Origin: a virus
Virus record (IMG/VR): IMGVR_UViG_3300037847_005307
Span: 1-21,422 of that record
Reading direction: 5' to 3' (one strand)
DNA length: 21,422 nt
Both the position numbers and the translations under genes were made by a program. A model generated the notes under the pieces. The model did no database searches. It saw only the letters and a list, made by a program, of their open reading frames with translations, and had not been told where the DNA came from. Positions 3,117 to 17,813 of the stretch are shown in pieces; positions within the stretch are counted from its first letter, which is position 1, and the number at the start of each line of letters is the position of its first letter.

Positions 3117-3523
3117 TCTTTTTGGTTTTGGGGCTTGTAAAGTACAATACCCGGAATTTGTTCTGTTATAAGTTTTTTAAACAATTTCCACCGCATAGAA
3201 AACGTTTCATTAGCTCTACCCTTACATTCTATTATAAAACCTTCACCTTCAAAATCTGGTGTATATTTAATGGGTTGAATACTTTTAAAACCTCTATTTT
3301 TAAATTCACCTTTTGCGTTTGCTGTTCTTTCATAGCTTTCGCTATTGAAGTAAAATCCTGGAATTAAAACAAAAGTTCTTTTTTCATAATCAGCTTTGAT
3401 GCCGTTTTGCTTTAATGCAATATACATATATTTTTCTAAACCTGAAGCAAAAGTAATCCCATCATGTGTAACTTTTTTAGATACTACAGGGCCGCGTTTT
3501 TTACTACGTCTTATCTTTCTCAT
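3041..3523 (-). CDS. PD-(D/E)XK endonuclease, T7 endonuclease I/resolvase-like
   Basis: A 160-residue protein with the nuclease core: Glu30 in GLEKYMY, then TPD ending at Asp90, and Glu99-x-Lys101 in IIECKGR. This order is that of the PD-(D/E)XK superfamily and is like phage endonuclease I-type Holliday junction resolvases, which cut branched DNA during replication and packaging. The N-terminus is strongly basic (RKIRRSKKRG), apt for DNA binding. The start overlaps the preceding gene by 20 bases. The superfamily is well supported; the choice between resolvase and another nuclease is inference. Confidence 0.7.
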   Translation of the reverse strand: MRKIRRSKKRGPVVSKKVTHDGITFASGLEKYMYIALKQNGIKADYEKRTFVLIPGFYFNSESYERTANAKGEFKNRGFKSIQPIKYTPDFEGEGFIIECKGRANETFSMRWKLFKKLITEQIPGIVLYKPQNQKECDKTVKLILESQKQLQDKSIKKDK

Positions 3524-3761
3524 TGTAGTCTTTAAGTAAAACTTCTTGAAGCTCAGTTGCTAAAACAGCTTTAAGCTTTTCAATATAGTTTACAGCGTCC
3601 ATTAACTCTTCTTGTATATTATTAAGCCATTCATTAATAGATTTGCTGTCTTGATCTAATGTTACTTTATACTTACTATAGCCTACATCAGATCTTGATA
3701 TAAACTTTTCAACTACCTTTTGTATGATAGGGTCTCTAAAATCGTATCCTCTTTTACTCAT
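3504..3761 (-). CDS. Small all-alpha NTP-pyrophosphatase-like protein
   Basis: An 85-residue helical protein. The segment KYKVTLDQDSKSINEWLNN followed by IQEELMDAVNYIEKLK resembles phage proteins of the all-alpha NTP-pyrophosphatase (MazG/dUTPase-2) group, in which a paired-Glu and a later Asp helix bind Mg2+. Only about half a canonical domain is present, so it might act as a dimer or have lost activity. It overlaps the MazG-like gene upstream by eight bases, which supports a shared role in nucleotide-pool control. Confidence 0.5.
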   Translation of the reverse strand: MSKRGYDFRDPIIQKVVEKFISRSDVGYSKYKVTLDQDSKSINEWLNNIQEELMDAVNYIEKLKAVLATELQEVLLKDYNEKDKT

Positions 3762-4509
3762 CTTTTACAAATGTTCCGTTAATCATTTTACCTTTTCTTG
3801 CTTTAATCTGATCATAAGCGTGTTCAATACAATCTTCTATGTTAACACCTAAATGCTCAGATAAGTTAGTTAAAACAACAACACAATCGCCTATAGCGTC
3901 CATAGTTTCTTGTTTGTCCTCTTTTAAAACAGCTTGAGATAATTCTCCTGTTTCTTCATATAGTTTTAACAATTGTGTTTTAATGTCCCCGTGCGTATAG
4001 ATGTTTCTTTCTTTTGCCCATGCACGTATTCTATCAAAAATATTTCTTCCATTAGTTTGGAATAAAAATTCTTCATAGTATGCTTTATTATATATAAAAC
4101 ATTTTTCATTATTAAACATAGACTTTTTAGCATTAGCTAATATCCATGTTCTTGTTACTTCTGTGTTTTCAAACTGGCCTAACGTAGTTTCCCAAACCAT
4201 TCCATCGTTTTCTAATAAAGCATCTGCTAAATGAACACGCGGGCATGGGAACGTAGTTGTTTGTTCTGTAACGTTTATTTTCATTTCTTTTTTTCTCATA
4301 AGTAATTGATTGTATGGAGTTATATCCACTTTGTATCCAAACTTTTTTTGTAGTTCTCTTTCTTTATCTGATATATAATTTATATCGTCAGAGCTAAGTA
4401 ATATTTCATACTCACCTGATTTAAAACCTTGCACTTTAGTTACACGTTTTAATACATTGGTTGTAACACCAATTTTTTTACCAGGAATGTGATACAAATA
4501 ATATTTCAT
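3754..4509 (-). CDS. GIY-YIG-like plus MazG-type NTP pyrophosphohydrolase fusion
   Basis: A 251-residue, two-part protein. Residues 1-66 (YYLYHIPGKKIGVTTNVLKR) look like a degenerate GIY-YIG nuclease-type fold seen at the start of many phage proteins. Residues about 155-245 form an all-alpha NTP-pyrophosphatase domain with metal-binding EExxE (185-189) and ExxD with a further Asp (201-208), as in MazG. Such enzymes hydrolyse dNTPs to dNMPs and pyrophosphate; T4 dCTPase gp56 belongs to this superfamily. The middle region is unrecognised. It overlaps the thymidylate-synthase-like gene by four bases, so a joint role in pyrimidine nucleotide remodelling is likely. Confidence 0.72.
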   Translation of the reverse strand: MKYYLYHIPGKKIGVTTNVLKRVTKVQGFKSGEYEILLSSDDINYISDKERELQKKFGYKVDITPYNQLLMRKKEMKINVTEQTTTFPCPRVHLADALLENDGMVWETTLGQFENTEVTRTWILANAKKSMFNNEKCFIYNKAYYEEFLFQTNGRNIFDRIRAWAKERNIYTHGDIKTQLLKLYEETGELSQAVLKEDKQETMDAIGDCVVVLTNLSEHLGVNIEDCIEHAYDQIKARKGKMINGTFVKDE

Positions 4510-5309
4510 ACTGCAACTGGCGCTTTAATTTTTGGTCCTGGTTTATAATTTTTTAATGTAAGCTTTCCGCTTTGATATGTAAATTTTGCTCCATCTTTAT
4601 AATCAGTGTTGTTCATATATTCTTTTACAGCATCAAAATGATTTAAATATATATGTGCATCTATAATAGATATATCAATATTTTTTGGAACTGTATTTGT
4701 TTCAGAAGCTACATATAATAATATTTTAGTAAATAAACAAACATCATACGGAACTCCTAAAAACATATCGCCGGATCTTTGAACTACAAACATACTTATC
4801 CTTCCATGGTTTACATAAAATTGAAAATATAAATAACATGGCGGTAATGCCATGTCTTGTATCATTGCAGGGTTCCATAAACTAATTATGTGTCGCCTGC
4901 CGTGCCTATCTTTATTTATTCCATCTATTAATTGTTTTAATTGGTCAATACCTTGCCCATTAAAATTTCTTAATTGATAGCCATAAACAGGCCCTAAATC
5001 TCCTTCAGGGGTTGCCCAGTTATCCCATATAGTTACATTATTGTCTTTGAATCTTTGAATATTTGTTTCGCCGTTCATAAACCATTCAAACTCTGTATCA
5101 AATATATTTTGACTCATATGCTTGCCATTTAAAATTGGAAAGTTATCGCCTTCTATTTTTTCTTGACCTAATTTTTTTTCTGCATTTATATTGATGTTTA
5201 ATCTTTGATGAAATAAAGATTTAGTTCCTACACCTGTTCTATCTTCCCTATAGTTTCCATCTTTAACAATTTTTGTTATAAGTGCTCTATAATTTTTTTC
5301 GTAAATCAT
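4506..5309 (-). CDS. Thymidylate-synthase-family enzyme, candidate dCMP (hydroxy)methylase
   Basis: A 267-residue member of the ThyA fold (Escherichia coli enzyme 264). Seen: catalytic Cys158 in LPPCYLYF, RRH..SLWNP (138-147), phosphate and folate motif RSGDMFLG (178-185), DAHIY (217-221) and the C-terminal closure APVAV. Using the ATG at 5309 fits the family; an upstream ATG (5366) would run into the next gene. True thymidylate synthases have Asn in the GxPFN motif (E. coli Asn177), which selects dUMP; here it is Asp189 (GVPYD). Asp at this place is the mark of dCMP hydroxymethylases such as T4 gp42. So it may make 5-hydroxymethyl- or 5-methyl-dCMP rather than dTMP. The fold is certain; the substrate is inferred. 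Confidence 0.9.
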   Translation of the reverse strand: MIYEKNYRALITKIVKDGNYREDRTGVGTKSLFHQRLNININAEKKLGQEKIEGDNFPILNGKHMSQNIFDTEFEWFMNGETNIQRFKDNNVTIWDNWATPEGDLGPVYGYQLRNFNGQGIDQLKQLIDGINKDRHGRRHIISLWNPAMIQDMALPPCYLYFQFYVNHGRISMFVVQRSGDMFLGVPYDVCLFTKILLYVASETNTVPKNIDISIIDAHIYLNHFDAVKEYMNNTDYKDGAKFTYQSGKLTLKNYKPGPKIKAPVAV

Positions 5310-11740: not shown

Positions 11741-12021
11741 ATATTGTCATTCGTATTATCAAGTCTTGGCACCAACCTATTATAAGTTAATCCTTCATTA
11801 TCTGTACCAACATTATGTTCTACAGTATAGTTGTTTTTTAAAAATTTACTATAGCTGTCATAAGTTTCATTCCATAAATCTTCACCTAACTCCTCTTTAA
11901 ACTCTAATATATACTTATTGGTTTTAGTTAACCCTCCATAACAATAACACGACTCCATCATGCTTTTAAAAGAACTGATGGGGTCACTTGCATAAAAATC
12001 TACTAAATCTTTATTTTCCAT
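11737..12021 (-). CDS. Hypothetical acidic protein
   Basis: A 94-residue protein (MENKDLVDFYASDPISSF...) with a Cys-x-Cys pair (CYCYGG) and a helical centre (LEFKEELGEDLWNETYDSY). No family recognised. Its ATG shares a base with the KTSC gene's stop (TAATG), so translation is probably coupled. Confidence 0.62.
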   Translation of the reverse strand: MENKDLVDFYASDPISSFKSMMESCYCYGGLTKTNKYILEFKEELGEDLWNETYDSYSKFLKNNYTVEHNVGTDNEGLTYNRLVPRLDNTNDNI

Positions 12022-12260
12022 TATATTACTTTTAGTGTTTGCTTTGTGTAGCTGTATTTATTTTTTATATTCCTGTTATAAAACTTTCCTATCGAGTAGC
12101 TATTACGCAACCGTTGAAACGTACGCACATGCACTTTCCAATATGAATACATAGTACCATTTTGAAACAATACTAGTAGTATTCTTTTCTCTCGGTCATA
12201 CGAGATTTGTTTTATTGCTTTACTATCTATTAGTAAAACTTCTTTACTTACTTTTCTCAT
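12021..12260 (-). CDS. KTSC domain protein
   Basis: A 79-residue protein. The pattern ...DSKAIKQISYDREKRILLVLFQNGTMYSYWKV...SIGKFYNRNIK matches the KTSC domain, a short beta-rich module common in phages and bacteria and thought from family context to bind nucleic acid; function not established. The usual KTSC C-terminus is kept except that this copy reads IGKFYN. The start at 12260 is chosen because the longer frame to 12320 would translate the tRNA gene. Its ATG is only two bases beyond the tRNA 3' end, so the mRNA must be made by processing of a common transcript. Confidence 0.75.
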   Translation of the reverse strand: MRKVSKEVLLIDSKAIKQISYDREKRILLVLFQNGTMYSYWKVHVRTFQRLRNSYSIGKFYNRNIKNKYSYTKQTLKVI

Positions 12261-12262
12261 AG

Positions 12263-12334
12263 TTGCGACGGGCGGACTCGAACCGCCGACCTCTGGGTTA
12301 TGAGCCCAGCAAGATACCACTTCTCCACGTCGCT
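12263..12334 (-). tRNA. tRNA-Met (CAT) with initiator (fMet) features
   Basis: A cloverleaf folds by eye. The acceptor stem is 6 bp with an A1-A72 mismatch at the end. The D stem is GAGA/TCTT with the A11-U24 pair. The anticodon stem is CTGGG/CCCAG around loop CTCATAA (anticodon CAU), and the T stem is GGCGG/CCGCC around TTCGAGT. The unpaired 1-72 position, the three consecutive G-C pairs in the anticodon stem (GGG/CCC) and the purine-11/pyrimidine-24 pair are the known marks of bacterial initiator tRNA. CCA is not fully encoded (the bases after A73 are C, T, A). It lies downstream of the promoter at 12441 and just before the KTSC gene. Confidence 0.9.
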
Positions 12335-15985: not shown

Positions 15986-17572
15986 ATGGAATTCAATAAC
16001 CCAAGTGAGATAGTAAAGGATTTGACCTTTGGCGATCATGCCAGAGATAGAATCATGCAAGGTGTAGAAAAATTATCCAAAGCGGTAGCTTCTACACTTG
16101 GTGCTTCAGGAAAGTGTGTAATATACGAAGATTCTATGGGTAACCCAATAATAACAAAAGATGGTGTTACAGTTGCAGAATCAGTAATATTAATTAACCC
16201 GGTGGAAAATTTGGGGGCAACACTAATAAAAGAAGCAGCTAAAAAAACAGTCAGAGAAGCGGGAGACGGCACCACCACCGCAACCGTCCTCGCACACTCT
16301 CTGCTCCAGGAAATGAACCAAGCCAAAGGATATACCGTGAGAGAAATCAAAGATGCTACAAACATTGTCCTGGAAAAAATATTAAAACAGCTAGATAAAA
16401 ATAGCATACAAATAAAGGATGACATGCTAGAAGATGTCGCCTCCATATCTTGTAACAATGACGTTGAGCTCGGCTTGATTATAGCTGACGCTTATAAATC
16501 CGTCGGAGCCAACGGAGTTGTTTTAATGGAGGAATCAGACACGGAAGAAACATTCAGCGAAATAGTAGACGGGGTGCAATTCGATTGTGGCATAAAATCT
16601 CAGCATCTGGTAACGGACACTGAAAAGAATAAAGCTATACTCGAGAACCCCTACGTCCTTATTGTTGCTTCGCAAATACCTAGTATTAGAAAAATACAGA
16701 ATGTACTTGAACATGTTATTAGAGAAAAGCGCAGTCTTTTAATTGTAGCCGGTATGGATCAGCAACCAATGGCTGCACTGTTAATGAACAAAGTAAAAGG
16801 AAACATTAAAGTAAACATTATTGATACACCTGGTTTTGGGGCTACCAAAATGGATACAATGCAAGATTTAGCCACAATAACCGGAGCGAAAGTTATCAAT
16901 GAAGAATTGGGAGATGATTTAGATTTAATCAATCCTGATGTTTTAGGTCAAGCAGAAAAAGCAGTAACCGATGCAACCTCAACGGTAATTACTATAAATA
17001 AAATGCCGGATGAAGCAAAAGAAAGAATAGACCTAGTAAATAAAAAAATTAAAACGGAAAAAAATCCGTTTATAAAATCTAAACTCGAACAAAGACTAGC
17101 CATGTTATCTGGTGCTGTAGCGATACTAAAAGTTGGCGCAAATAGTAAAATTGAGTTAAAAGAAAAGAAAGATAGAGTTGAAGATGCTATCTATGCAGTT
17201 AAAGCTGCAATTAAAGAAGGTATAGTTCCAGGCGGTGGAGTTGCTTTATTAGATGCAAGTCAAAAAGTAAAAATTGATAATGATGCTGAACTAATACTAT
17301 TAAAAGCAGTTGAAGCACCTTATAGCACAATATTAAAAAATGCCGGAATAGATCATAATACAATAAATCCTATAGACTTTAATGACACACGTAAAAAAGG
17401 ACACGGTGTTAATGTTATAACAGGAAAAGAAGTAAATATGATAAAAGCTGGTATTATAGATCCGGTAATGGTGACTAAGAAAGCATTGGTAAATGCAGTT
17501 AGTGTGGCTACAACAATTATATCTGCTGATTGTATAATTTCAAATATTAGAGATTATGAAGGCAATCAATAA
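15986..17572 (+). CDS. groEL: Phage GroEL chaperonin
   Basis: A 528-residue group I chaperonin (E. coli 548). The catalytic aspartates of the ATPase are present: Asp59 in TKDGVTVA (E. coli Asp52), Asp94 in GDGTTT (Asp87) and Asp400 in VEDA (Asp398), with the hinge GGG at 416-418 and apical TPGFGATKMDTM. The Tyr-Tyr-Phe that line the E. coli substrate groove (199, 203, 204) are replaced by Ile203, His207 and Leu208, and the C-terminal GGM tail is missing. So it should form an ATP-driven folding ring, perhaps for phage capsid proteins, with altered substrate or cap preference. An A/T leader (ATTAAATTAAATTAAATG) without Shine-Dalgarno precedes it. The first third is richer in C/G codons than the rest. 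Confidence 0.96.
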   Translation: MEFNNPSEIVKDLTFGDHARDRIMQGVEKLSKAVASTLGASGKCVIYEDSMGNPIITKDGVTVAESVILINPVENLGATLIKEAAKKTVREAGDGTTTATVLAHSLLQEMNQAKGYTVREIKDATNIVLEKILKQLDKNSIQIKDDMLEDVASISCNNDVELGLIIADAYKSVGANGVVLMEESDTEETFSEIVDGVQFDCGIKSQHLVTDTEKNKAILENPYVLIVASQIPSIRKIQNVLEHVIREKRSLLIVAGMDQQPMAALLMNKVKGNIKVNIIDTPGFGATKMDTMQDLATITGAKVINEELGDDLDLINPDVLGQAEKAVTDATSTVITINKMPDEAKERIDLVNKKIKTEKNPFIKSKLEQRLAMLSGAVAILKVGANSKIELKEKKDRVEDAIYAVKAAIKEGIVPGGGVALLDASQKVKIDNDAELILLKAVEAPYSTILKNAGIDHNTINPIDFNDTRKKGHGVNVITGKEVNMIKAGIIDPVMVTKKALVNAVSVATTIISADCIISNIRDYEGNQ

Positions 17573-17813
17573 CTTTATTATAATAGAACCTATTAAAGAA
17601 GAACCTAAAAAAGAAGAAGGTTTACTTATAATGGATCAACACGTAGATGACGTTAGGTACTTAAAAGCTAAAATTATATCTGTAGGCAATATGACGGAAG
17701 GAGTTAAAATTAATGATATAATTTATTACGATAGAAGAGCCGGTCACGGAATAGAATACGACAATAACTTATACCAAGTTATAAGACAACAAGATGTTGT
17801 ATTAGTCGGTTAA
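17556..17813 (+). CDS. groES: Phage GroES co-chaperonin
   Basis: An 85-residue co-chaperonin (E. coli 97). It keeps the family layout: N-terminal beta strand (NFIIIEPI), a mobile loop (KKEEGLLIMD; hydrophobic LLI in place of the usual IVL that docks on GroEL), AKIISVGN, VKINDIIYYDRRAG and the final VLV. The roof hairpin region is shortened. It overlaps groEL by 17 bases, the reverse of the usual groES-groEL order in bacteria, so it was assembled or rearranged independently of the host operon. The pair is probably a matched phage folding machine. Confidence 0.88.
   Translation: MKAINNFIIIEPIKEEPKKEEGLLIMDQHVDDVRYLKAKIISVGNMTEGVKINDIIYYDRRAGHGIEYDNNLYQVIRQQDVVLVG

Follow-up and report, generated by a model that had tools for sequence, protein, structure and literature searches.

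What is a phage gene for that automatic annotation names thymidylate synthase (TS), when its product carries Asp at the position where TS selects its substrate by an Asn? The question is raised by a viral DNA of 21,422 nucleotides (IMG/VR record IMGVR_UViG_3300037847_005307, positions 1 to 21,422; this whole stretch is referred to below as the window), which encodes a ThyA homologue on its minus strand at 4506–5309. We consider it likely that this protein is a phage deoxycytidine monophosphate (dCMP) 5-methylase, that is, a TS re-aimed from deoxyuridine monophosphate (dUMP) to dCMP by the substitutions Asn177→Asp and His147→Tyr (E. coli numbering), and that cytosine in the phage DNA is largely 5-methylcytosine (5mC).

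A ThyA homologue with two changes in the substrate site

The features on which the argument turns are the following.

4506..5309, minus strand: ThyA-family protein of 267 residues, predicted dCMP methylase (PF00303; residue alignment; AlphaFold2 model)
4743..4745, minus strand: codon of Asp189, the pyrimidine-selecting position, equivalent to E. coli Asn177 (aligned to ThyA of E. coli, gp42 of T4 and gp29 of SPO1)
4833..4838, minus strand: codons of catalytic Cys158 and of Tyr159, the latter at the E. coli His147 position (sequence and alignment)

The protein matches the whole PF00303 model (positions 1–266, E = 3e-71) as well as phrog_160, and its AlphaFold2 model (predicted local distance difference test score 92.5) overlays E. 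coli TS over the full length, C-terminal tail included (Z score 33.9, root-mean-square deviation 1.4 Å). The open reading frame (ORF) and its alignment bear out what a first-pass annotation had read from the DNA, namely that Asp189, in the motif RSGDMFLGVPYD, stands at the position of E. coli Asn177. Likewise, Cys158 (codon 4836–4838) aligns with E. coli Cys146, and the catalytic, folate and hydride-transfer positions that were checked are all TS-like, in keeping with the claim that the catalytic Cys and the folate motifs are retained. A second change in the substrate site is absent from that annotation: Tyr159 (codon 4833–4835), directly after the catalytic Cys (PPCYLYF), replaces His147. Thus, where a TS has the dUMP-selecting Asn177 together with His147, the window protein and 104 relatives have Asp and Tyr.

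The Asp/Tyr pair defines a viral clade

These relatives come from two scans of IMG/VR, which yielded 104 viral loci encoding 76 distinct proteins (some loci are one contig fetched twice), with identities to the window protein ranging from 97% down to about 50%. The sampled clade forms one group when the two trait columns are masked (Shimodaira–Hasegawa-like approximate likelihood ratio test support 89). Asp177 is present in 104/104 loci, and so is Tyr147, whereas Asn177 is found in all of the 80 best bacterial matches, which include Flavobacteriaceae, Bacteroidales and Rhizobiales and outside which rarer bacterial D177 proteins could exist. Asn177 is also found in the eight other viral ThyA loci of the set. 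Since every viral relative has Asp and every one of the nearest bacterial proteins has Asn, Asp177 is neither a chance event nor a sequencing slip; nor is it common in functional ThyA of the host clade, a possibility that the first-pass annotation had left standing.

Methylation rather than hydroxymethylation

The published link between position 177 and cytosine is twofold. TS mutants with the Asn-to-Asp change are reported, in the accounts relayed by PMC8670742, to shift towards dCMP, as the first-pass annotation had stated of such mutants, and to form 5-methyl-dCMP. In the MetaGPA study, Asp177 marks modified-cytosine phage contigs, and position 147 is also top-ranked (PMC8670742). The window protein also shares Asp at this position with T4 gp42. 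According to the ternary structure of T4 dCMP hydroxymethylase, that enzyme departs from TS in Asp145, which precedes the catalytic Cys by three residues and takes the place of a Leu, in Ser94, in Val85 instead of Trp83, and in lacking a C-terminal tail (PMC6400193).

In an alignment that includes E. coli ThyA, T4 gp42 and SPO1 gp29, all of these signature positions are TS-like in the window protein and in the first 26 of its relatives, save that one relative (L027, described below) is without the tail. The same holds for the remaining catalytic positions that were inspected, the changes being confined to 177 and 147. The window protein has Leu three residues before the Cys, Pro at E. coli position 92, Trp83 and an AxVAV C-terminal tail, instead of the Asp/Glu, the Ser/Thr and the missing tail of the gp42 type; of the gp42 signature residues, it possesses Asp at 177 alone. 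Alongside this Asp, the hydride-transfer set (Trp80, Trp83, Leu143 and the C-terminal tail) is complete. Because the hydroxymethylase signature residues are missing and the hydride-transfer machinery is intact, 5-methyl appears likelier than 5-hydroxymethyl, and the best prediction is a dCMP methylase that would yield 5-methyl-dCMP, the product also of laboratory N-to-D mutants of TS and of Xp12-infected cells.

A dCMP hydroxymethylase like T4 gp42, which would supply 5-hydroxymethyl-dCMP for a genome containing 5-hydroxymethylcytosine (5hmC), possibly further decorated, could claim the shared Asp177 and the presence of hydroxymethyl-based systems among the modified MetaGPA contigs (PMC8670742). 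We regard it as unlikely, given the Leu before the Cys, the Pro at position 92 and the retention of Trp83 and the tail, and given that the T4 D145N mutant reportedly yields no 5-hydroxymethyl-dCMP (PMC6400193). The earlier forecast of a genome with either 5hmC or 5mC can thus be sharpened towards 5mC as the likelier form.

A probably coupled MazG-domain gene

The ThyA homologue does not stand alone.

3754..4509, minus strand: two-part protein with a C-terminal MazG/PRA-PH domain (residues about 154–251), predicted dNTP (probably dCTP) pyrophosphatase (Pfam)
4506..4509, minus strand: ATGA in which the stop codon of the ThyA gene overlaps the start codon of the MazG gene (sequence)
3504..3761, minus strand: conserved helical protein of 85 residues, no profile match

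The ATGA overlap probably reflects translational coupling of the two genes. The product of 3754–4509 scores above the Pfam cut-offs for both PF03819 (26.7 bits) and PF01503 (24.2 bits), MazG matches were obtained for 35/35 members, and the acidic motifs EExGE and DaIGD are conserved. Its structural model matches MazG enzymes, including the MazG-like enzyme of cyanophage S-2L (7ody, Z score 10.0), and mouse dCTPase (6sqw, Z score 8.8), values that between helical folds are only moderately telling. A homologue lies directly downstream on the same strand in 104/104 clade loci, with a median gap of 19 nt. In one 4.1-kb contig (L027), a 502-residue ORF from about position 749 spans both genes in one frame, but the C-terminal tail of ThyA and the N-terminal part of the MazG protein are missing from it; a genuine fusion, a deletion in frame or a collapse in the assembly may be the cause.

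The T4 gp56/gp42 pair sets a pyrophosphatase that converts dCTP to dCMP beside a dCMP-modifying enzyme, and by analogy the MazG-domain protein may be specific for dCTP. The pairing recurs elsewhere: a D177 ThyA adjoins a PF01503 pyrophosphatase in AXL1 and PaMx74, of the Xp12 group, and lies one gene away from one in the uncultured marine phage MedDCM-OCT-S28-C10 (hereafter S28-C10). The MetaGPA data, too, show PF01503 together with thymidylate synthase in phage contigs with modified cytosine (PMC8670742). No MazG neighbour was seen in phages with an N177 ThyA, in a small sample and with a specific profile that missed the pyrophosphatases of AXL1 and PaMx74.

Of the two adjoining NTP pyrophosphatases announced by the first-pass annotation, only the product of 3754–4509 holds up. 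The 3504–3761 protein matched no such family in Pfam, NCBIfam or PDB profile searches, its alignment to the MazG family by hhalign reached a probability of 0.7%, and its assignment as a pyrophosphatase is unsupported. Altogether, there is good support for a dCMP-type enzyme paired with one all-alpha NTP pyrophosphatase and, from this, for a genome with modified cytosine: conservation extends across the clade, the pair recurs in further D177 lineages, and the published association data agree with it.

Relation to known systems

One close parallel is engineered: N229D of Lactobacillus casei TS and N177D of E. coli TS (Liu and Santi 1992; Hardy and Nalivaika 1992, as cited in PMC8670742) have the same framework and the same Asn177→Asp change, with dCMP use and 5-methyl-dCMP formation reported there. 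Unlike these mutants, the clade enzyme is natural and conserved, with a His147→Tyr companion change and a coupled MazG gene.

Among natural systems, the Xp12 group was compared through AXL1 gp63 and PaMx74 gp52. Xp12 DNA has 5mC for all cytosine, and the ThyA homologue of the group is presumed to be a methylase. In AXL1, which is closely related to Xp12, C-containing sites withstand restriction (PMC9206674). Like the clade enzyme, gp63 and gp52 have Asp177, a non-His residue at 147 and an adjoining PF01503 pyrophosphatase; unlike it, they are distant in sequence, have Phe83, Ser or Ala at 92 and Pro147, lack the AxVAV tail, and lie beside genes for dCMP deaminase and dihydrofolate reductase (DHFR). 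T4 gp42 with the gp56 dCTPase shares Asp177 and the logic of joining a dCMP-modifying to a dCTP-removing enzyme, whereas the clade protein has none of the other hydroxymethylase signature residues and no T4-type dNMP kinase was found in its relatives. The clade cassette enzyme therefore differs from both gp42 and the Xp12-group protein.

The ThyA of S28-C10 (AP013540) has Asp177, Tyr147 and Leu143 as in the clade; it is about 36% identical and is altered at positions 83 and 92 and in the tail. Its locus (664–2685) comprises, in a row, the PF01503 pyrophosphatase, a putative nucleotide kinase, the ThyA, annotated as an ordinary thymidylate synthase, and a dCMP deaminase. We do not press its grouping with the clade because the placement rests on a long branch. 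Finally, the TS of modified MetaGPA contigs resembles the clade enzyme in D177, in changes at position 147 and in the co-occurrence of PF01503, with an experimental link to modified cytosine; the follow-up in that study concerned a 5hmC carbamoyltransferase, not a methylase (PMC8670742). Note that Microbacterium phage Triscuit (MH047631) carries at 593–2298 a tandem pair of ThyA-family genes and, after it, a dCMP deaminase gene; gp66 has the dCMP-type Asp177 with Thr147, gp67 the Asn177 and His147 of an ordinary TS, and both are annotated thymidylate synthase.

Proposed pathway and competing explanations

In the pathway that we favour, Cys158 would attack C6 of dCMP, while Asp189 would recognise the cytosine and help to protonate N3, with methylene-tetrahydrofolate as the one-carbon donor. 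Because the water-excluding lid formed by the tryptophans, the leucine and the C-terminus is intact, the intermediate would then be reduced by hydride transfer, giving 5-methyl-dCMP and dihydrofolate. The MazG-domain enzyme, whose gene overlaps that of the methylase, would probably convert dCTP to dCMP, thereby feeding the methylase and clearing unmodified dCTP. Making 5-methyl-dCTP and incorporating it would fall to CMP kinase, NDP kinase, DHFR and polymerase of the host, and the resulting DNA, with its cytosine largely 5mC, would resist many host restriction enzymes.

The share given to the host reflects the gene content of the clade, in which many long relatives measure 58–68 kb. DHFR, ThyX, a second ThyA, a T4-type dNMP kinase and PolA were not detected in long relatives (9–15 records, which may be incomplete), nor was dCMP deaminase in nine clade records. 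The hydroxymethyl-dCMP kinase named earlier as a gene to look for elsewhere in the genome thus had no T4-type counterpart in the relatives searched. If the model is right, the host therefore supplies the steps for which no phage gene was found. Two other searches were uninformative: one for Tet/JBP oxygenases gave no match in the clade and none in the control genomes either, and the observed-to-expected ratios of 4-mer palindromes (0.85–0.90 in the clade) say nothing about protected DNA because SPO1 and a T4 segment show equal values.

Several points weigh against methylation of dCMP for phage DNA. At several positions, the AXL1 and PaMx74 proteins, presumed to represent the known type of methylase, are no longer TS-like, which makes the TS-like signature a guide rather than a law. 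A phage-encoded kinase for 5-methyl-dCMP was not found in the relatives searched. The substrate specificity of MazG enzymes is unpredictable from sequence. Lastly, the uncultured podovirus MW202828, related through its terminase and GroEL, has a gene for FAD-dependent ThyX (29958–30632) and no ThyA cassette.

Mainly because of this last phage, we retain as a competitor a protein that acts chiefly as a thymidylate synthase on dUMP, with Asp and Tyr tolerated or compensated. It would agree with the score against the whole-protein model TIGR03284, which is that of thymidylate synthase (204 bits for a cut-off of 108), with the otherwise normal catalytic residues and with the fact that this is the sole TS-family gene in the phages searched, in which ThyX was not found. 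Asp177, however, is reported to switch TS to dCMP (in the works relayed by PMC8670742), is the residue of the modified contigs (PMC8670742) and occurs in 0/80 close bacterial ThyA, and we hold a thymidylate role to be quite improbable. Equally doubtful is a route in which dCMP is methylated and 5-methyl-dCMP mainly deaminated for dTMP synthesis, which the dCMP deaminase genes beside the enzyme in S28-C10 and AXL1 might suggest, since no such gene was found in the nine clade records and the ever-present MazG partner is more in keeping with removal of dCTP.

Host and phage type

For the terminase of a 97%-identical relative, the matches are confined to phages infecting Flavobacterium, Cellulophaga, Tenacibaculum or Maribacter and to the uncultured podovirus MW202828; for this reason the host very probably belongs to the Flavobacteriia. 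The clade phages resemble podovirus-type phages of that class.

Several other genes were observed. The window encodes GroEL (528 residues) and GroES at 15986–17813, both conserved in long relatives. A gene at 1117–1683 weakly matches phrog_1644 and, just under the cut-off, DUF6445; its product resembles by eye a 2-oxoglutarate-Fe(II) oxygenase and has homologues in 12/104 clade loci and in an elemovirus (54% identical). A tRNA-Met gene on the minus strand (12262–12334) overlaps an ORF called at 12021–12320, and the same elemovirus likewise has a tRNA-Met gene near replication genes. In one relative (G007, 59696–61564), the cassette is flanked by the gene for a 622-residue protein that by eye resembles a ribonucleotide reductase; the window lacks a counterpart of it.

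Implications

That D177 goes with modified cytosine in phages is already established by association (MetaGPA 2021, PMC8670742). Full 5mC substitution is documented for Xp12 and suspected in its relatives, and an analysis of the Xp12 pathway has been announced for later publication. The novelty lies in having delineated a coherent, numerous and uncultured phage clade that combines a conserved two-gene cassette with the full TS-type methylation apparatus. On balance, we lean towards a widespread podovirus-type lineage of Flavobacteriia phages whose DNA would be fully 5mC through an N177D/H147Y TS and a coupled dCTP pyrophosphatase, with an origin separate from that of the Xp12 system, a cassette that would have stayed hidden because automatic annotation names the enzyme thymidylate synthase. 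If this is true, many phages would contain a natural counterpart of the textbook N-to-D TS, making a pathway to 5mC genomes directly testable in vitro and offering a source of 5-methyl-dCMP synthase, and 'thymidylate synthase' annotations that have been taken for auxiliary metabolic genes would be corrected.
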